NCBI GenBank assembly: GCA_019454765.1
Contig: JACFNR010000002.1
Span: forward strand, 1 to 55,952
From: Trueperaceae bacterium
GTDB lineage: Bacteria > Deinococcota > Deinococci > Deinococcales > Trueperaceae
Direction: 5' to 3'
Length of the DNA: 55,952 bases
The notes below the pieces were generated by a model that worked only from the letters and a program-made list of their open reading frames with translations, ran no database searches and had not been told where the DNA came from. Positions 164 through 10,569 of this stretch are shown here, piece by piece. The stretch's first letter is position 1; each line of letters opens with the position of its first letter. The translations under genes and the position numbers were made by a program.

Positions 164-988
164 TCAGGCGCCCAAGCGCGCCAGGTCGACTTCCGACGCG
201 ATGGTGCCGAAGGCGGCGTGGTGGCCAACGGCGACGACACGTTCGAACACCGCCTTGGCCTCCTGGACCCGCCCGTTGTAGTAGTACCAGTTCCCGACGC
301 CGTAACCCTGCGTCGCGAGCGTCTTCTTGTCCCCATCGGTGGGGGAGAGTACGCTCTCGGGTTCGGCTCGACCCTTGTAGAGTTCGACGCGACGGTAGTA
401 GGACGGCTCATTGACGTGCAAGTCGAGGCTCGTCGCCTCCAACAGGCGGGCGGCCTCGTCCGCGCGGCCGGCCCGCCGCAGGCTCATGTACAGCCAGTCG
501 GTGGTGGCGACGGTCATGTCGTCGTCAACGCAGAGCTCCAGCGCCTGCGCGTACTTGGCCACCGCCTCGTCGAACTCGCCACGCAGGTAGTGAGCCAGGC
601 CGTAGTGATACCAGGTGCTCGATAGGAGGGTTCCCTTGTACACGTCGCGGAGACGCTCGAGGTTGGTCGCCGTGATGGGTGTCGGTGTGACCAATAGCCG
701 CGGTTCGTGCCCGAGGATCAGGCGCTCGACCTCGGGCATGAGCTCGGCCTGGTAGTACTCGATCTCGTCTGCTTGACCCTCCAGCAACGCGACGGCCTTC
801 GCGAAATCGTCGACAGCGGCTGCGAACTGCCGCAGCGACACGTTGAAGTGGCCACGGTGGCGGTACAGCATCCCGGACCGAGGGTGGTTGGCGATGCCGT
901 CCGAGAGCACGCGGACGGCCTGGTCATGGCGGTCCTGATACGAGTAGACCTTGGCGGCGAGCATGTAGCGAAGCGGTTCGGCGCTCAT
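164..988 (-). CDS. Tetratricopeptide-repeat protein
   Basis: A 274-residue protein made of helical repeats. Segments such as residues 8-40 (YSYQDRHDQAVRVLSDGI) and about 125-150 (YHYGLAHYLRGEFDEAVAKY) show the TPR pattern of small and aromatic residues. No signal peptide or membrane segment is visible, so it should be cytosolic and act as a protein-binding scaffold. Its ATG overlaps the stop of the GntR regulator by 4 bases (ATGA 985-988), so the two are translationally coupled. This suggests it works with the regulator or the divergent transport locus. The ligand or partner cannot be read from sequence. Confidence 0.85.
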   Translation of the reverse strand: MSAEPLRYMLAAKVYSYQDRHDQAVRVLSDGIANHPRSGMLYRHRGHFNVSLRQFAAAVDDFAKAVALLEGQADEIEYYQAELMPEVERLILGHEPRLLVTPTPITATNLERLRDVYKGTLLSSTWYHYGLAHYLRGEFDEAVAKYAQALELCVDDDMTVATTDWLYMSLRRAGRADEAARLLEATSLDLHVNEPSYYRRVELYKGRAEPESVLSPTDGDKKTLATQGYGVGNWYYYNGRVQEAKAVFERVVAVGHHAAFGTIASEVDLARLGA

Positions 989-2117: not shown

Positions 2118-2327
2118 TCAGTGGGGAAGGGTAACGCCCTGCTCGGCGGCGCGTTGGGTGAAGGTCTTGCCGCCTTTCCCCCAGACGTCCATCGGCAGTT
2201 CGTAGAGGATGACCTGGGTGCCCTCGGAGAGCGCTCCGTTGGCGACCATCACCTCGGTGATCCCCTTGATGATTGCATCGCGCTGCTCTTGCGAGCGGCG
2301 CCCTAGTTCGACTCTCACGATTGCCAT
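2118..2327 (-). CDS. 4-oxalocrotonate tautomerase-like small protein lacking Pro-1
   Basis: A 69-residue protein, MAIVRVELGRRSQEQRDAII onward, with the beta-alpha-beta layout and length of the 4-oxalocrotonate tautomerase / MIF superfamily. The segment ALSEGTQVILYELPMDVWGKGG matches the second strand and C-terminal hairpin. In that family the catalytic base is the N-terminal proline exposed after Met removal; here codon 2 is GCA (Ala). AGGAG lies 6 bases before the ATG, so the start is firm and the proline is really absent. It is the first gene of the leftward operon with the GntR regulator. It may be catalytically altered, or act as a binding subunit. Confidence 0.75.
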   Translation of the reverse strand: MAIVRVELGRRSQEQRDAIIKGITEVMVANGALSEGTQVILYELPMDVWGKGGKTFTQRAAEQGVTLPH

Positions 2328-2498
2328 TTCGCTCCTTCGCGGCCGCAGCTACGCGGGTCTTCGTAGATGTCTGGCTCACCAGCGGATCCCCGCTGTGAAC
2401 CTCCGACTTGAACTGGCCCGTCTGCCTGGCGGCACCCACCGCTGCGTCGCGGGTCTAGGCTTCGTCTTCCACTTCCTGTCGTTGAGCTGTGTATCAAT

Positions 2499-2508
2499 GT
2501 ACTGGTAC
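2499..2508. promoter_or_regulatory. Putative GntR operator, copy 1
   Basis: GTACTGGTAC (GTAC-N2-GTAC, so the arms are symmetric) begins 4 bases downstream of the leftward -10 hexamer and so overlaps the expected transcription start. The identical sequence recurs exactly 200 bp away at 2699. Binding by the neighbouring GntR protein is inferred. Confidence 0.55.
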
Positions 2509-2512
2509 GCAG

Positions 2513-2541
2513 ACCATATCGCTTCGCTTCGCTCGAGTCAA
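2513..2541 (-). promoter_or_regulatory. Sigma70-type promoter for the tautomerase/gntR/TPR operon
   Basis: On the minus strand TTGACT (2541-2536) is followed by a 17-base spacer and TATGGT (2518-2513). Predicted start of transcription is about 2506, inside the GTACCAGTAC element, which suggests autoregulation by repression. Confidence 0.6.
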
Positions 2542-2661
2542 GGCCAGGAGTTGGTGGACGGCAGCAGCATCTCTTGGTTCACCGCGCTCGTGTAAATTGC
2601 CGTCTGGCGCGGACGGAACCCTGGTCTCGTCCTGCCCGCTTCGGCCCCCTGCCACACCGCA

Positions 2662-2691
2662 TTGACAAGCGAGCTCCTCGCCGCGCATGAT
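2662..2691 (+). promoter_or_regulatory. Sigma70-type promoter for the family-5 ABC operon
   Basis: TTGACA (2662-2667), an 18-base spacer, then CATGAT (2686-2691). The predicted start near 2698 abuts the second GTACTGGTAC element. The consensus -35 with a weak -10 is typical of a regulated promoter. Confidence 0.55.
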
Positions 2692-2698
2692 GCGGGGC

Positions 2699-2708
2699 GT
2701 ACTGGTAC
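2699..2708. promoter_or_regulatory. Putative GntR operator, copy 2
   Basis: Second exact copy of GTACTGGTAC, starting 7 bases after the -10 of the rightward promoter, so at or next to +1. It mirrors copy 1 at the divergent promoter. Confidence 0.55.
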
Positions 2709-2808
2709 ACCGACATGCGTTCGGGCAGTTGGACAGGTTGCCGCGCACGTGGCCTAACCCGTGCCCACGCCCCGCACCCACGGGACCCGAACGACGAAAG
2801 GACACGGC

Positions 2809-4386
2809 ATGCGCATCGCCCTCGCCCGGTTCATCTCGGTCATGCTGGTAGCCACCCTGGGTGTGACCGCCTTCGCGCAGGAGACACCCACCAAGCGCGG
2901 CGGAGTGGTCCAGATCCCGCTGGCGACCCAGCCAGCGACGTTCAACCCCATCCTTCCTTCCGAGCTCGCCGCCGCCATCATCAACTGGACGATGTTCTCT
3001 CCCCTCACGGCGGTCAACCCGTGGACCAACACGCTCGAGCCCTACCTGGCCGAGTCGTGGGAAGCCGACGCCGACCTCACCACCTGGACCTTCCACCTGC
3101 GTGACGGCGTGCGGTGGCACGATGGCGTGCCACTCACCGCCGCCGACGTGAAGTTCACGTTCGACCGTGCACGCGACCCCGACGAGGGAGCGAACAACGC
3201 TGCGGACTTCGCCAAGGTGGTCTCTGTCGACGTCGTCGACCCGCTCACTGTCAAGGTGACACTCGAAGCGCCCGACGCCTTCTTCGCCGCGCGCCTCGCG
3301 CTCGGGGGTAACGAGATCATCCCGGAGCACGTACTGGGTGGCTATGACCTCCTGGCCGACGCCGTCGAGTTCAACAGTAAGACGCCGATCGGGAGTGGGC
3401 CGTTCAAGATGGTGCGCGCGGTCCCGGGCTCCTACTTCGAGCTCACCCGCAACGAAGACTTCTTCCTTGGAGCTCCCTACCTCGATGGCCTCGTCTTCCG
3501 CGTCGTGCCCGACGGCAACACCCGCGTGACTCAGTTGCTGACCGGCCAGCTCGACTGGGTCGACATCGAGCCGCCACAGCTTCCGGCCGTGAGCAAGGTC
3601 CCGCACGTCCAAGTCACAACCTTCGACAGCCTCGGATACCAACTGTTCGCCTGGAACCTTCGCAACCCGTTGTTCCAAGACACCCGGGTTCGCGAGGCGA
3701 TGATGTACGCCGTCGACCGACGCAGCATGATCGCGACCGTCTCGCCCGGCCTCGGTTACGTCGATGACGTGTACATACCCCACAGCATCGATTGGGTGCC
3801 GCGTCCCGACGTGCAGTTCCGCGAGTACGACCCCGCCAAGGCTCTAGAACTCATGGCGGAGGCCGGCTGGACCAAGAACGCTCAAGGGATTCTGGAGAAG
3901 GACGGCGAAGAGTTCTCCTTCTACATCCTCGTCGACCGTGGTGACGTGCAGCGTGAGCAGATGGGCCTGATCCTGCAGCAGTACTACCAAGATCTCGGAA
4001 TGAAGGTCGAGTACGTGCTGGCGGAGCGCGGCGGCCGCTGGCTGGAGGAGACTCAGAAGCGCACGTTCGACACGCGCCTGGCGGCCTTCCCGATGCCGAA
4101 CATCGATTGGGCGCAGCGCCTCTACACCACCGATGGACCGTACAACTCGCAGTCGTACTCCAACGCCGAAGTAGACGAGCTTTTCTCCCAGGTCCTCGCG
4201 ACGATCGACCAGGACGTTCAGGCGGCCCTACTCGAGAGGATCGGCGAGCTGCTTTACCGGGATCCGCCCAACATGGTCCTGCTCTTCCGCGAACGCATGA
4301 CCGCTTCGAACGCCAACATCGGCAACATCCCGCCCAACAACATCAAGGACAGCATGCCGTACTCGCACCTGCTGTTCCGCCGCTGA
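2809..4386 (+). CDS. Family-5 (peptide-type) ABC transporter substrate-binding protein
   Basis: A 525-residue DppA/OppA-type binding protein. ATG 2809 is chosen over an in-frame GTG 16 codons upstream because AAAGGA lies 6 bases before it and the protein then opens with a signal peptide (MRIALARFISVMLVATLGVT, predicted cleavage after AFA, before QETP). Family-5 hallmarks are LAESWEADADLTTWTFHLRD, WHDGVPLTAADVKFTF, and RVREAMMYAVDRRSM. It captures peptides or other organic solutes outside the membrane and delivers them to the two permeases downstream. The substrate is unknown: this family also binds nickel, sugars and opines. The D-2-hydroxyacid dehydrogenase at the operon end hints at a hydroxy- or keto-acid-containing ligand. 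Confidence 0.93.
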   Translation: MRIALARFISVMLVATLGVTAFAQETPTKRGGVVQIPLATQPATFNPILPSELAAAIINWTMFSPLTAVNPWTNTLEPYLAESWEADADLTTWTFHLRDGVRWHDGVPLTAADVKFTFDRARDPDEGANNAADFAKVVSVDVVDPLTVKVTLEAPDAFFAARLALGGNEIIPEHVLGGYDLLADAVEFNSKTPIGSGPFKMVRAVPGSYFELTRNEDFFLGAPYLDGLVFRVVPDGNTRVTQLLTGQLDWVDIEPPQLPAVSKVPHVQVTTFDSLGYQLFAWNLRNPLFQDTRVREAMMYAVDRRSMIATVSPGLGYVDDVYIPHSIDWVPRPDVQFREYDPAKALELMAEAGWTKNAQGILEKDGEEFSFYILVDRGDVQREQMGLILQQYYQDLGMKVEYVLAERGGRWLEETQKRTFDTRLAAFPMPNIDWAQRLYTTDGPYNSQSYSNAEVDELFSQVLATIDQDVQAALLERIGELLYRDPPNMVLLFRERMTASNANIGNIPPNNIKDSMPYSHLLFRR

Positions 4387-4460: not shown

Positions 4461-5408
4461 ATGGCCGAATATCTGGCGAAACAACTCGTGGCCAGTGCAT
4501 TGGTGCTGTTCTTGGTCATGACGGCCACCTTCTTCCTGGTGAAGATGGCGCCCGGCCAGCTCAGCATCCTGGCCGACCCGACGATGGACCCGGCCGTCGT
4601 GGCAAGCGTCGAGAAGCGCTTCGGACTCGACCGCCCACCCTTCGAACAGTACCTGCGGTGGGTGTCTCGCATGAGCCAAGGGGACTTGGGCACTAGCCTG
4701 GTCTACGGTCGCCCCGTTCTAGCGATGGTGACGGAGCGGTTGCCCGCCACCCTGCTCCTCGGCCTTGTCGCGCTCAGCATCACGGTACTCATCGGTATCC
4801 CGGCCGGGATAATCGCGGCGCGTTGGCCCAACTCGATGGTCGACCAAGCGCTGAGCTTCGTGGGAATCGTGGGCCTGGCGACACCCAACTTCTGGCTGGG
4901 CATCCTCTTGATCATCCTCTTCTCCGTCAAACTGGGTTGGCTGCCAGGGTCCGGCATGCAGACCATAGGACAGCCGTTCTCGCTCCTGGACCGTGCGAGC
5001 TACCTCGTGCTTCCCGCGATCGTGCTGGCGACCTCGACCACCGCCGAGATCATGCGCTATACGCGCTCCAGTTGGCTGGAAGTCATGAACCAGGATTACG
5101 TTCGCACCGCCCGTAGCAAGGGCCTCGCCGAACCGCGGGTGCACCTCAAGCACGTGTTCAAGAACGCCCTCATCCCGGTGCTGACCATCCTCGGGCTCGC
5201 GTTGCCTCGCCTCGTGGGCGGCTCCGCCATCGTCGAGTCGCTCTTCAGTTGGCCGGGCATCGGCTCGATGGCGGTCAACGCTGCCGTGAGCCGCGACGCC
5301 ACCGTGATCTTGGGAACGACGCTCTTCGTGTCGGCCGGGGTGATCGCGAGCAACCTGCTCATCGACGTGCTATACGGCGTGGTCGATCCTCGCATCAGGT
5401 ACGACTGA
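4461..5408 (+). CDS. ABC transporter permease, DppB type
   Basis: A 315-residue inner-membrane permease with the BPD_transp_1 fold. It has an N-terminal membrane segment (SALVLFLVMTATFFLVKMAP), a periplasmic stretch, then five hydrophobic segments. The cytoplasmic coupling loop reads DYVRTARSKGLAEPRVHLKH, the EAA-type contact for an ATPase. The C-terminal DVLYGVVDPRIRYD is typical of DppB/OppB. Its stop overlaps the next start by one base (TGATG at 5406-5410). It forms the channel heterodimer with the following DppC-type permease. No ATP-binding protein is encoded in this operon, so a shared ATPase is needed. Confidence 0.93.
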   Translation: MAEYLAKQLVASALVLFLVMTATFFLVKMAPGQLSILADPTMDPAVVASVEKRFGLDRPPFEQYLRWVSRMSQGDLGTSLVYGRPVLAMVTERLPATLLLGLVALSITVLIGIPAGIIAARWPNSMVDQALSFVGIVGLATPNFWLGILLIILFSVKLGWLPGSGMQTIGQPFSLLDRASYLVLPAIVLATSTTAEIMRYTRSSWLEVMNQDYVRTARSKGLAEPRVHLKHVFKNALIPVLTILGLALPRLVGGSAIVESLFSWPGIGSMAVNAAVSRDATVILGTTLFVSAGVIASNLLIDVLYGVVDPRIRYD

Positions 5409-6280
5409 TGCCTGCGAGTGCGACAAGCCGGCGCACCGCTCTTCAGGTGTTCCTTGCCAGCCTGCGGCGCAACAAGTTGGCGCTCTTCGGTGGGGCGTGG
5501 CTCGTCCTCACCTGTGGAATCATCCTGCTCGAGCCGCTACTCCCCTTGCCCTCGCCAACGCGCATCGACCTCGCCAACACGTTCGCCCCTCCCAGCGCAA
5601 GCCACCTGCTGGGGACGGACGAGAACGGGCGCGACGTTCTTGCCCGCCTCATCGACGGGGGCCGCGTATCGATCCTCGTGGGTCTGGTAGCCGCCCTGCT
5701 CACCATGATCGTGGGAGGAACGCTAGGGGTGGTGTCGGGATACGCCGGCGGCGCGATCGACCGGGTGATCATGCGGGTCACGGACGGCGTCTTGTCGATC
5801 CCGGTCTTCTTCCTGCTCTTAGCGGTAGTAGCCCTGTTCGGCTCGAGCATCACGGTGCTGGTCCTCGCGCTCTCGTTCACACGCTGGATGGGTCCGGCGA
5901 GGTTGATCCGCGGCGAGATCATGCGGGTCAAGGAGTTGGAGTACGCGGCCGCAGTGAGGGGCCTGGGCGCAGGTCATCTACGCATCATGTTCCGCCACCT
6001 GTTGCCACAGGCGATGCCGTCGCTGATAGTCGCCACCTCCATCGGCGTTGGGAACGTCATGCTCGTCGAGGCGGGCCTTAGTTTCCTCGGGCTGGGCATC
6101 ACTCCTCCGACGCCCTCGTGGGGCAACATGCTCACAGCCAGCCAGTTCTACATGTGGTCGGCGCCGCAACTCGCCGTCTACCCCGGATTGATGATCCTGC
6201 TGACCGTGCTGGCGTTCAACGCCGTTGGCGACGTCATCCGTGACACGCTCGACCCTCGCCGCCGCGCCGGTGGGGAGTGA
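5408..6280 (+). CDS. ABC transporter permease, DppC type
   Basis: A 290-residue partner permease. Start ATG 5408 overlaps the DppB-type stop by one base, which decides it against an upstream in-frame ATG at 5249. The sequence has the short N-terminal cytoplasmic tail, a membrane segment (LALFGGAWLVLTCGIILLEP), then HLLGTDENGRDVLARLIDGG, the OppC_N/BPD boundary typical of DppC. The coupling loop is EYAAAVRGLGAGHLRIMFRH. SFLGLGITPPTPSWGNML and the DTLDPRRR tail complete the family pattern. Confidence 0.93.
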   Translation: MPASATSRRTALQVFLASLRRNKLALFGGAWLVLTCGIILLEPLLPLPSPTRIDLANTFAPPSASHLLGTDENGRDVLARLIDGGRVSILVGLVAALLTMIVGGTLGVVSGYAGGAIDRVIMRVTDGVLSIPVFFLLLAVVALFGSSITVLVLALSFTRWMGPARLIRGEIMRVKELEYAAAVRGLGAGHLRIMFRHLLPQAMPSLIVATSIGVGNVMLVEAGLSFLGLGITPPTPSWGNMLTASQFYMWSAPQLAVYPGLMILLTVLAFNAVGDVIRDTLDPRRRAGGE

Positions 6281-7272
6281 GGAGTAAGGTGTCGGGTCAC
6301 GACCAAGAAGCAAGACAGTTCCACGTGCTGGTGAGTCACATATACGAAGAGCACTATGTCGAGGAACTCAGGCGCCTGTTCCCGGCCGTTGAGTTCACGC
6401 AGTTGCCGCCAACGGCGCCGTGGCCCGACCGGACGCCGACCGCGGACGCCATGTTGTATGCGGGCCTTAGGAAGCCGGACTTGAGTGCGCTGCTTCGGCA
6501 CGCGCCGCGCCTCAGATGGCTTCACACCGGTTCCGCCGGCTTCGATTGGGTGATGGTCCCTGAGATCGAGGCTCAGGGGATCGTCGTGACGCGGTCCGCA
6601 GACGTGATGAGCATCCCGATCGCCGAGTTCGTCCTTGCCGCGATGTTGAGTCACGCCAAGAACCTGGCCCGGTTAGCCGAAGCTCAAGCGCAGCACGAGT
6701 GGATCCTCCCTCTACATCAAGAACTGCACGGCAAGGAGGCCCTCGTCGTTGGCGCAGGCAGCATCGGAACGCGTGTGGCGGGGCTTTGTCGTGCGTTCGG
6801 CATGCGGGTGGTCGGCGTGAACCGCAGCGGAGACATGGTCCCGGGGTTCGATGCCGTCCATGGCGCCGACTCGCTCGATGGTCTGTTGCCTAGCGCCCAT
6901 TACGTGGTGCTGACGGCCCCCGGGACCAGCGAGACTCGAGGGATGTTCGGCTCCCGGCGTTTCTCACTCATGCGCCAGGGCGCCTACCTTGTGAACGTGG
7001 CGCGCGGCAGCCTGGTGGTCGAGGACGCGCTCATCGCCGCGCTTGCCTCGGGCCGGTTGGCGGGGGCCTGCCTCGATGCCTTCGCCGTTGAGCCGCTTCC
7101 TGCCGACAGCCGACTGTGGGAGACGGAAGGCGTGCTCGTGAGTCCCCACACCTCGTACCGCACGCCCGAGATCCGCCGTCGGGTGTTCGAGGAGTTCGCG
7201 GCTAACCTAGGTGCGTTCATGACAGGTGCCCCGTTGAAGGGACGCATGCGCAACCCCGAGCTTGGTTACTGA
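6277..7272 (+). CDS. D-2-hydroxyacid dehydrogenase, NAD-dependent
   Basis: A 331-residue cytosolic oxidoreductase of the D-isomer-specific 2-hydroxyacid dehydrogenase family, interconverting 2-keto acids and D-2-hydroxy acids. Seen: nucleotide loop GAGSIG (159-164), catalytic Arg243 in VNVARGS, Glu272 in DAFAVEPLP and His291 in SPHTSYR, all present. GTG 6277 overlaps the permease stop (GTGA); an alternative GTG at 6289 has GAGGAG four bases upstream and would remove four residues. As the last gene of the ABC operon it probably acts on the imported compound or its product. The exact substrate cannot be told. Its stop is 29 bases from the convergent ugpE stop. Confidence 0.92.
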   Translation: MRSKVSGHDQEARQFHVLVSHIYEEHYVEELRRLFPAVEFTQLPPTAPWPDRTPTADAMLYAGLRKPDLSALLRHAPRLRWLHTGSAGFDWVMVPEIEAQGIVVTRSADVMSIPIAEFVLAAMLSHAKNLARLAEAQAQHEWILPLHQELHGKEALVVGAGSIGTRVAGLCRAFGMRVVGVNRSGDMVPGFDAVHGADSLDGLLPSAHYVVLTAPGTSETRGMFGSRRFSLMRQGAYLVNVARGSLVVEDALIAALASGRLAGACLDAFAVEPLPADSRLWETEGVLVSPHTSYRTPEIRRRVFEEFAANLGAFMTGAPLKGRMRNPELGY

Positions 7273-7301: not shown

Positions 7302-8192
7302 CTACTTGCTCTGCGACAACGCGAACCCGCGCATGAACTGTTCCTGCAGCAGCATGAAGACGAGCAGCGGCGGCAGGATGGTGATGAGGGCGCCGGCCAT
7401 CACGTAACCCCACTGCACCCCCTCGCCGGTCCCGATTATGAGGTTCAACCCCACCTGGACCACCTGCAGCTCCTCGCGCCGGATGATGACGCGCGGCCAC
7501 AGGTACTGGTCCCACACGTAGACGAACTGGATGACCGCCAGCGCGCCGATGGTGTTGGCGCTCATGGGGACGAGTATGCGGGCGAGGAAGCGGAGGGGGC
7601 CGGCGCCGTCCATCTTGGCGGCGTCCGCCAGTTCGCGCGGGATGGAGAGGAAGTGCTGGCGGAAGAGGAAGATGCCGGTGGCGGACGCTAGGAACGGGAT
7701 GGTGAGGGCGAGGAAGGTGTTGGACCAGCCGAAGCCGTGCGGGAGCGGTTGGAGGAACACCTTGGCGGGGTTCTGCAGCCACGCCCAGAACGCCGCCCAC
7801 GACGCGGGTGGTCGCTGCGAGATGAGGTCGAAGAGGGGGACGATCAGGACCTCGGTCGGCATCATCAGGGTCAGGAGGATGAGGATGAAGACCAGCCCCT
7901 TGAACCGGAAGTCGAAGTAGACGAGGGCGAGGCCTGCCAACAGCGCGGTGAACGTCTTGCCGAGGGTGACGACCAGCGCGATGAAGAGCGAGTTGCGGAT
8001 GAACATGCCGAGGCGGGCCTTCACCCACACGGCCTCCACGTTGGCGATGAGCTCGCTGCCGGGTACGAGGCTGGGGGTCAGGACGGCGGCGTTCGACTGC
8101 GTCGACTTGATGAGCGCGAAGAGCACCGGGGCCATCACGAGTAGGCACGCCAGGCCGAGGAGGAGGTGGATGGGCCAGCGCCGGGGCAGCAT
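7302..8192 (-). CDS. ugpE: Glycerol-3-phosphate-type ABC permease UgpE
   Basis: A 296-residue MalG-type permease. Its ATG (8192) overlaps the ugpA stop by one base (TGATG), which rejects a much longer open frame running into ugpA. It resembles E. coli UgpE over its length: SLVPGSELIANVEAVWVKA after the first membrane span, LMMPTEVLIVPLF, ASATGIFLFRQHFLSIPREL, VYVWDQYLWP and the C-terminal IGTGEGVQWGYVMAGALIT. The coupling loop is DAAKMDGAGPLRFLARI. With UgpA it forms the membrane channel of the importer. It is the last gene of the ugpBAE unit, and the ATPase UgpC is not in the window. Confidence 0.92.
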   Translation of the reverse strand: MLPRRWPIHLLLGLACLLVMAPVLFALIKSTQSNAAVLTPSLVPGSELIANVEAVWVKARLGMFIRNSLFIALVVTLGKTFTALLAGLALVYFDFRFKGLVFILILLTLMMPTEVLIVPLFDLISQRPPASWAAFWAWLQNPAKVFLQPLPHGFGWSNTFLALTIPFLASATGIFLFRQHFLSIPRELADAAKMDGAGPLRFLARILVPMSANTIGALAVIQFVYVWDQYLWPRVIIRREELQVVQVGLNLIIGTGEGVQWGYVMAGALITILPPLLVFMLLQEQFMRGFALSQSK

Positions 8193-9121
8193 CACGCGCC
8201 TCCGTAGTACACGCGCCGCCCGCCGAAGCGGAACTGCAGGATGGTGATGAAGCCCACGAGCAGCAGGAGCACGACGCTCTCGGCCGCCGCGAAACCGAGG
8301 TTGGCGGCGCCGCCGAAGCCGTCCTGGTACACCTTGTAGATGAACGTGGTGGTGACGCCCGCCTGGTCGAAGGGCGGTGAGCCGACCGGTCCACCGGCGG
8401 TGAGGATGTCGATGAGGCCGAAGGTGTCGAAGAAGGCGTACACGAGGTTCGTGAAGAAGAGGAAGAACGTCATGGGCGAGAGCAGCGGGAAGGTGATGGC
8501 GAAGAAGCGTTGCAGCGGCGTGGCGCCGTCTATCTGCGCCGCCTCGCCGAGCTCGGCCGGCACGTTCTGCAGCGCCGCCAGGTAGAACACGATGTTGTAG
8601 CCGAGGTTCTTCCAGATGGCCGCCATGCTCACGACGGCGAAGGCCAGCAGCGGCGTGTCGAGCCAGCGGGGCTTGATGCCGAAGGTGGCGTTGAGGAGCT
8701 GGTTCACGACCCCGACCTCGGGGTTGAACATGAACAGGAAGATGGTGCCCGCCACGGCGGGGGAGAGTGCGAACGGCCAGATCAGGAGTAGGCGGTAGAC
8801 GCGCGCGCCCTTGACCGGCTGGTTCGCGAGCGTCGCCAGCGTGAGGCTGACGGCGAGGCCGGCGATCACGACCACGCCGCTGAACAGCAGCGTCTGGAGC
8901 AGCACCTGGCGGAACCCGGGCGCCAGGACGCCCGTGAAGATGTTGCCGAAGTTCTCGAGCCCGATGTACTTCTGCGTGCCGAGGAACAGGTTGCTGCGGT
9001 AGAGGCTGAGCACGAACGACTGGATGACGGGGAAGTACAGGAAGACCAGCAGGATGATCAGGGTCGGCAGGAGCAGCAGCCACGGCAGGGAGCGGCTCCT
9101 GAAGACGGGGCTACCTCTCAT
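8192..9121 (-). CDS. ugpA: Glycerol-3-phosphate-type ABC permease UgpA
   Basis: A 309-residue MalF-type permease with six predicted membrane segments starting at LPWLLLLPTLIILLVFLYFP. The coupling loop ELGEAAQIDGATPLQRFFAI contains the EAA motif that contacts the ATPase. ATG 9121 is preferred over a GTG six bases earlier because GGAAGG lies five bases upstream of it. It lies 81 bases after ugpB with a very strong hairpin in between and overlaps ugpE by one base. Assignment to the Ugp subgroup rests mainly on its neighbours UgpB and UgpE. Confidence 0.92.
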   Translation of the reverse strand: MRGSPVFRSRSLPWLLLLPTLIILLVFLYFPVIQSFVLSLYRSNLFLGTQKYIGLENFGNIFTGVLAPGFRQVLLQTLLFSGVVVIAGLAVSLTLATLANQPVKGARVYRLLLIWPFALSPAVAGTIFLFMFNPEVGVVNQLLNATFGIKPRWLDTPLLAFAVVSMAAIWKNLGYNIVFYLAALQNVPAELGEAAQIDGATPLQRFFAITFPLLSPMTFFLFFTNLVYAFFDTFGLIDILTAGGPVGSPPFDQAGVTTTFIYKVYQDGFGGAANLGFAAAESVVLLLLVGFITILQFRFGGRRVYYGGA

Positions 9122-9143
9122 GCGCACCTTCCGGAATCAGCGA

Positions 9144-9176
9144 GGGGGCCGCCGCGTGCGTCACGCGGCGGCCCCC
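9144..9176 (-). promoter_or_regulatory. Perfect 14-bp hairpin between ugpB and ugpA
   Basis: GGGGGCCGCCGCGT (9144-9157) pairs perfectly with 9163-9176 around a 5-base loop GCGTC. There is no T-run after it in the direction of transcription. Its position after a binding-protein gene is that of the known mRNA-stabilising, expression-lowering intercistronic hairpins. A terminator is the alternative. Confidence 0.75.
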
Positions 9177-9202
9177 GAAGGGACTCGGGGTCTGACCGAG
9201 GG

Positions 9203-10504
9203 TCAGAAGTTGGCGTTGTACTCGGCGAGCGCAGCGTCGGCGAGCTTCTTGGCCTCCTCGAGCGCGGAGTCGACGCTGGCGCCGGCCAGCACCTTCTGGA
9301 TGGCCTGCTCGACGATGGTGCGGGTGGCCTGGAAGGTGCCCATCAACGCGCCGGCGGTGGCGGTGTTGGGGATGGTCTCCAGCAGCTGATCGAAGGCGGT
9401 GCTGGCGTTCGGGAACTCCTTGAACCAGCCCTCCTCGCGGAGGAGGTCGACGCTGCTCACGCGCACGGGGTAGTAGCCCGTGGCCTTGTGCCACGACACC
9501 ATGTTCTCCGGGTTGGTCATGTAGAGGACGAAGTCGCGAGCGACGAGGAGTTCCTCCATCGGGTGGTCGCGCACGACCCACACGCTGGCGCCGCCTATCA
9601 CTACGCCGTTGCGCGTGGTGCCGTCGGGGATGGGCAGCATGCCCGTCACCATGTCGAAGCCGCCGCCGATGGCGTTGGTGATGTTGACGAGGTCGGCCGT
9701 CGAGGTGATGTGGAACATGACCTTGCCGTTGGTGAAGATGGCGTCGGAGCCGTCCCAGTCCTCGAGCTTGCCGGTGTAGGTGTAGTAGCCCTTGTCGTTC
9801 ATCGTCTTGAAGAAGTTGAAGACGTTCTTGACGGCGTCGGAGGTGAGCAGGACCTCGGTGGCGCGCGCCGAGCGGCCGTTGTCGTTGTTGGTGAGCATGG
9901 CGCCCTGCTCGGCCACCCACTGCTCGAGGAACCAGCCGTTGAGGCTCACGCCGAAGCACTTGACGTCGGACGTCAGGACGCCCGCCGCCGCGGCGGCGTC
10001 GCACGCGGCCTCGATCTCGCCGAAGGTGGTGGGCACGGCGGCGACGCCGGCGGCGTCCATCAGCGACTTGTTGGCGTAGAGGATGGGGCTGGAGGAGTTG
10101 AAGGGTATCGAGTAGACCTGCCCGCCGATGGTGTAGTAGTTGAGGACGGGCGCGATGTAGTCGGCGGTGTCGAAGTCGCCGAGCTCGCCGACGGGGATGA
10201 AGATGCCAGAGTCGACGGCGATCTGGCTACCGACCTCGTACAGCTGCACGAGGTGCGGCGGGTTGCCTTGGCGCGCGGCCAGGACGGCCGCCTGCTGCGT
10301 CTCGGGGTAGCTCCCCTTGCGTTCTCCCACCATCACGTATGGCCGGCCGTCCGCGGCGAGTTGAGCGTTGAACTCGCTCATGCGATCCTGGATCCAACCG
10401 GAACGGTTGGCGTCGCTGAAGGCGTACCAGAACTCGATCTCCGTCTGCGCCAACACCATCGACAGCGTCATGAGGGCGACAACGGCAACGACGATCCGCT
10501 TCAT
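9203..10504 (-). CDS. ugpB: Glycerol-3-phosphate-type ABC substrate-binding protein UgpB
   Basis: A 433-residue extracytoplasmic binding protein (family 1, Ugp branch). ATG 10504 has GGAGG six bases upstream and yields a clean signal peptide (MKRIVVAVVALMTLSMVLAQ). It matches E. coli UgpB in conserved places: LVQLYEVGS, PFNSSSPILYANKS, IGGASVWV, and WHKATGYYPVRVSSVDLLRE. It should bind sn-glycerol-3-phosphate or glycerophosphodiesters, although related proteins bind other polyols. It is first in a leftward operon with ugpA and ugpE. Confidence 0.93.
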   Translation of the reverse strand: MKRIVVAVVALMTLSMVLAQTEIEFWYAFSDANRSGWIQDRMSEFNAQLAADGRPYVMVGERKGSYPETQQAAVLAARQGNPPHLVQLYEVGSQIAVDSGIFIPVGELGDFDTADYIAPVLNYYTIGGQVYSIPFNSSSPILYANKSLMDAAGVAAVPTTFGEIEAACDAAAAAGVLTSDVKCFGVSLNGWFLEQWVAEQGAMLTNNDNGRSARATEVLLTSDAVKNVFNFFKTMNDKGYYTYTGKLEDWDGSDAIFTNGKVMFHITSTADLVNITNAIGGGFDMVTGMLPIPDGTTRNGVVIGGASVWVVRDHPMEELLVARDFVLYMTNPENMVSWHKATGYYPVRVSSVDLLREEGWFKEFPNASTAFDQLLETIPNTATAGALMGTFQATRTIVEQAIQKVLAGASVDSALEEAKKLADAALAEYNANF

Positions 10505-10569
10505 TCCTGACCTCCCTTGGGCCACGCGAAAGCGTTCCCCACGCGGTCCGTTTCACTAGACGTTACGGG

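Follow-up and report, generated by a model that had tools for sequence, protein, structure and literature searches.

A conserved pair of probable operators in a GntR-family divergon of a Trueperaceae bacterium

Two copies of the 10-mer GTACTGGTAC between divergent operons of a Trueperaceae bacterium probably belong to a real, conserved operator pair of an autoregulated GntR divergon. The copies are very likely the cores of separate operators for the GntR-family protein encoded at 985–2106, which would repress both its own operon and the divergent transporter operon. Sequence comparison revealed the elements themselves, their placement on predicted promoters, their deep conservation, their co-occurrence with the regulator and a parallel paralogous cassette. 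The layout is that of a divergon, with a conserved predicted operator at each divergent promoter and the transcription factor gene in one of the two operons.

Elements at the divergent promoters

The window (the whole stretch of DNA analysed, 55,952 bases) contains GTACTGGTAC at 2499–2508 and 2699–2708, 200 bp apart as described in the initial annotation, and no further copy. A mean of 0.04 copies was expected in the window and none of 100 dinucleotide shuffles reached two. Scanning for promoters returned just the two sigma-70-type promoters that had been proposed (Table 1), for which the expectation in shuffles was 0.1 such hexamer pairs. The predicted +1 positions, approximately 7 nt past each −10, fell within or adjoining the element at both promoters, in agreement with the earlier placement of each 10-mer at a start site, and the leftward operon does encode a GntR protein.

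Both 10-mers have the same orientation and form a direct repeat. The mirror-image arrangement claimed initially does not apply to the 10-mers themselves but is found in a longer element, where symmetry involves an RTACA box that follows after 14 bases. The 10-mer is only part of the full site, which in the outward direction from each promoter reads YGTAC-(CA/TG)-GTAC-N4-RTACA. The proposal of operators at both divergent starts with a linked GntR gene was upheld by comparative evidence, while the proposed 10 bp element was replaced by one of approximately 20 bp with a third half-site. The left operator is perfect in the window, and the third box of the right operator is degenerate, with three mismatches. 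Across ten orthologous loci, the RTACA box was exact in seven left sites and six right sites.

Table 1. Coordinates of genes, predicted promoters and predicted operators at the divergent locus
Feature	Position	Strand	Evidence
TPR protein, 274 aa, leftward gene 3	164..988	-	Pfam TPR; beside GntR in 8/10 loci
GntR-family regulator, 373 aa	985..2106	-	Pfam GntR 1.4e-16; profile aligns with entire YtrA-type PDB chains
4-oxalocrotonate-tautomerase-like protein, 69 aa, leftward gene 1	2118..2327	-	Pfam Tautomerase 5.6e-08; 10/10 loci
Left operator CGTACCAGTACATTGATACA (outward reading; YGTAC-N10-RTACA, internal GTAC)	2490..2509	-	Exact genome-wide match; aligned with 9 orthologous sites; over predicted +1 of leftward operon
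Leftward promoter TTGACT-N17-TATGGT	2513..2541	-	Promoter scan; TTGACa-type -35 at equal distance in most orthologs
Rightward promoter TTGACA-N18-CATGAT	2662..2691	+	Promoter scan; TTGACA and TATGAT-like -10 in most orthologs
Right operator CGTACTGGTACACCGACATG (outward reading)	2698..2717	+	Ortholog alignment; over predicted +1 of rightward operon
Family 5 solute-binding protein (SBP), signal peptide start MRIALARFISV..., rightward gene 1	2809..4386	+	Pfam SBP_bac_5 1.7e-89; starts compared
DppB-like permease	4461..5408	+	Pfam BPD_transp_1 2.9e-40; conserved
DppC-like permease	5414..6280	+	Pfam BPD_transp_1 6.5e-31; conserved
D-2-hydroxyacid dehydrogenase	6277..7272	+	Pfam 2-Hacid_dh_C 5.4e-51; conserved where contig extends far enough

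Conservation across orthologous loci

The ten loci comprised the divergent locus of the window, L011–L016 and L028–L030, which cover three families and GntR identities from 100 to approximately 35 %. GntR orthologs of the same genus and family (L011–L016) were 50–59 % identical and those of two other families of the order (L028–L030) were 36–40 % identical. Tautomerase and GntR genes were divergent from SBP, DppB and DppC genes in all ten. The TPR gene was not detected in L037, and L038 ends too early to tell; the dehydrogenase gene was present in nine loci, with the L037 contig stopping before it and L035 cut. No ATPase gene was recognised beside the permeases within the window. A second ABC transporter operon, with two Pfam-confirmed permeases and an apparent sugar-type solute-binding protein, occupies 7302–10525 on the minus strand and ends convergently against the dehydrogenase gene.

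Two sites were present in the intergenic region of each of these ten loci, which share ancestry and are not independent of each other, and nearly all were located on or close to the start of a TTGACa-type promoter. Most sites have a TTGACa-type −35 upstream and a −10 that ends approximately 4–6 bases before the core. The 10-mer GTACTGGTAC occurred on the plus strand in most of the loci; deviating cores were the right sites of L015 (GTACTGGTAA) and L016 (GTACTGGTCA) and a core in L028 (GTACTGATAC), where both sites are one base off the consensus. When the 468 14-mers of the intergenic region at the divergent locus of the window were compared with six divergent ortholog intergenic regions, the 11 best-conserved all overlapped the two sites (summed mismatches of 12–17 versus a median of 29). 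The probability of at least two sites was ≤0.006 per intergenic region (mononucleotide shuffles), although in L016, where the right copy is degenerate, a single site passed this threshold. Absence of the element from orthologous intergenic regions had been named at the outset as a result that would refute the operator proposal, and the opposite was found. This indicates that the two sites have been kept over long evolutionary time.

Spacing of the two sites

The initial annotation also suggested that the 200 bp spacing could allow looping. Joint binding of the two sites with the intervening 200 bp looped out, giving cooperative repression as by AraR with two ara boxes, is unlikely. The spacing in the window corresponds to 19.05 turns at 10.5 bp per turn, and AraR, a member of the GntR family, does form loops between in-phase boxes (PMC4218819). 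However, inter-site spacings in the ten loci were 200, 193, 212, 193, 185, 148, 139, 241, 199 and 262 bp, a range of 139–262 bp that includes 18.4, 17.6 and 13.2 turns, and no conserved helical phase was found among them (phase vector 0.39, P=0.23). With variable spacing and no conserved phase, looping is unsupported and classification as a loop-forming operator pair was rejected. Every site also already covers its own start, so that a loop is not needed. Inter-site distance did not correlate with intergenic length (r=−0.14, n=10).

Specificity of the element and the paralogous cassette

The whole 2.9-Mb genome contains five copies of GTACTGGTAC. The three outside the divergent locus appear to lie within open reading frames and were rejected as regulon members. 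Genome-wide searches of relatives for the full element with at most one mismatch returned mainly the locus pair, with few extras, and at genome scale the full element was nearly confined to the divergent locus. Of the 39 family genomes, only five contained exact full elements, all of them with a GntR ortholog and with the sites adjoining it; family genomes without the ortholog had at most scattered one-mismatch matches, at about the control level. In two same-genus genomes without GntR, the SBP was also absent at E 1e-80, and gain or loss therefore appears to affect the cassette, regulator and sites jointly. More distant GntR paralogs in relatives had no exact copy of the element nearby, so operator specificity is not fixed across the protein family.

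The outer arms of the element, YGTAC-N10-RTACA, have exactly four exact matches in the 2.9-Mb genome, one of which is the left site. Two others (C34:17074 and C34:26903) precede a GntR paralog and an SBP/DppB/DppC paralog on a contig of the same genome (G000) that carries paralogous GntR, tautomerase, SBP/DppB/DppC and dehydrogenase genes. Identities to the paralogs were approximately 49 % for GntR and 48–61 % for SBP/DppB/DppC. The paralog operators (L040:9075 and L040:18923) are at the GntR and SBP promoters, approximately 9.8 kb apart and 2–6 bases past TTGACc/g promoters, and have CCGG in the middle, versus CA/TG-GTAC in the window sites. The paralogous SBP gene is interrupted in its N-terminal part by a run of N, representing withheld or masked bases, at approximately 18600–18700 of L040. 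The fourth match, CGTACGAGCACCGACATACA at G000:C8:83700–83719 (L044:1501–1520), is approximately 90 bp past the point where a 466-aa reading frame ends and may be either a regulon member or a chance match.

YtrA-subfamily operators are long palindromes whose GT and AC lie well away from the centre. Outer arms were present in many ortholog sites and, in exact form, in the two paralog sites. Because the two paralog sites keep them, the outer arms may be the part of the operator that stays constant, as it would in the YtrA-type arrangement, although the 10-bp core (GTAC-N2-GTAC) is also symmetric and may instead hold the true centre. Identical outer arms at the promoter of the paralogous GntR gene in the same genome make cross-binding possible, and the sites could in principle serve as same-family operators of a different regulator, such as a GntR paralog. 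This is improbable, as the paralog sites have a different centre (CCGG) and, within the family, exact full sites occur solely in genomes that carry this GntR ortholog, next to it.

The regulator protein

Pfam detected only the GntR domain in the 985–2106 protein (PF00392; 60.3 bits versus a cut-off of 27), and all of 17 relatives matched it, which places the protein in the GntR family. The winged helix spans residues 36–99 and is followed by a two-helix YtrA-like segment to approximately residue 150 and then by a C-terminal domain of approximately 200 aa. A profile of the 17 relatives aligned with nearly the whole length of PDB chains 3neu (12–123), 3ic7 (11–125) and 2du9 (2–116), covering approximately residues 33–150. 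The protein thus looks like a YtrA-type regulator over this region with an extra C-terminal domain. The helix–turn–helix domain and two-helix oligomerisation segment of YtrA proteins were both recognised, by sequence only, but in place of the reduced C-terminal domain of approximately 50 aa there are approximately 200 further conserved residues.

No convincing family for the C-terminal part was found in Pfam, NCBIfam or PDB sequence searches, and these gave no match to a GalR/LacI-type C-terminal domain. The C-terminal profile gave a weak PDB hit to NAD+ synthetase (E 0.0017), which spanned just a portion of the domain and was given no weight. AlphaFold2 prediction from the single sequence was too poor to use (pLDDT 40.6, pTM 0.27). 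The C-terminal domain was present in 12 of 111 genomes of the phylum, with up to six copies per genome, and a scan of the genome contigs found a single short YtrA-like protein (L027). Two GntR paralogs, L020 (G022:C87:3396–4370) and L017 (G009:C231:13680–14720), each have one in-frame stop (TAA and TGA, respectively) in the matched region and are possibly pseudogenes or assembly errors.

Proposed mechanism

Operators over +1 at both promoters, together with the regulator gene in one of the operons, point to steric repression with autoregulation. Each element of approximately 20 bp consists of the outer arms plus the internal GTAC half-site, and a GntR dimer would bind it across the transcription start. 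Bound GntR would block RNA polymerase at its own tautomerase–GntR–TPR operon, giving autorepression, and at the divergent SBP–DppB–DppC–dehydrogenase operon. The C-terminal domain would sense a ligand, which is probably the transported compound or its product, and the repressor would then be released. We infer binding by GntR, the dimeric mode, the ligand response and repression rather than activation, the last because the elements are at +1. Some GntR regulators are activators, and this one could activate one of the two operons; however, a position at approximately +1 downstream of near-consensus promoters is that of a repressor, and activation is highly improbable. Chance repetition of the 10-mer, for which the simple and self-complementary GTAC might speak, is practically negligible given the shuffles and is refuted by conservation in ten loci.

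Relation to known systems

Suvorova et al. (2015, PMC4494728) described GntR-family divergons in which the double sites are separate; these belong to the FadR and HutC subfamilies, and in this class the distance between sites rises with intergenic length. As in those divergons, the transcription factor gene is in one operon and the transporter and enzyme genes are in the other, with a site near each and additional half-site boxes close to the main site. In contrast to the FadR and HutC divergons, distance here was not correlated with intergenic length and the regulator looks YtrA-like. According to PMC4494728, members of the YtrA subfamily have a reduced C-terminal domain of approximately 50 aa and hardly ever show divergent sites.

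Experimental precedent comes from YtrA_Sa of Sulfolobus, which autorepresses through an operator that covers the transcription start site and has accessory half-sites (PMC6746942). The two systems share an alignable DNA-binding domain and two-helix segment, a start-covering (here predicted) operator, a very small regulon and accessory half-sites, and they differ in the approximately 200 extra C-terminal residues, the two divergent operons and the internal GTAC half-site found here. AraR of Bacillus subtilis, which loops between in-phase boxes with the consensus At(T/A)tGTaCGTAcaa(A/T)T, likewise combines a GntR winged helix with a large C-terminal domain and an operator built on GTAC half-sites (PMC4218819). 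However, the AraR half-sites abut (GTACGTAC), whereas the present element has GTAC-N2-GTAC and a third box, no GalR/LacI-type domain was detected here by sequence, and in-phase spacing is not conserved.

The control layout is known and common in bacteria, and the regulator architecture and three-box operator are a variant of the GntR autoregulated divergon. Tentatively, the regulator may found an undescribed GntR subfamily, in which a complete YtrA-type DNA-binding and dimerisation unit is joined to a new ligand-sensing domain of approximately 200 aa and acts on a three-half-site operator (YGTAC-YR-GTAC-N4-RTACA) at the starts of paired transporter and regulator operons. The analysis provides a well-supported predicted operator and a small regulon for an unnamed group of regulators, and the paralog pair, in which outer arms are kept and middles differ, makes specificity testable. 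The analysis also suggests that a YtrA-type regulator can have a large sensor domain and divergent sites, both contrary to the usual description.
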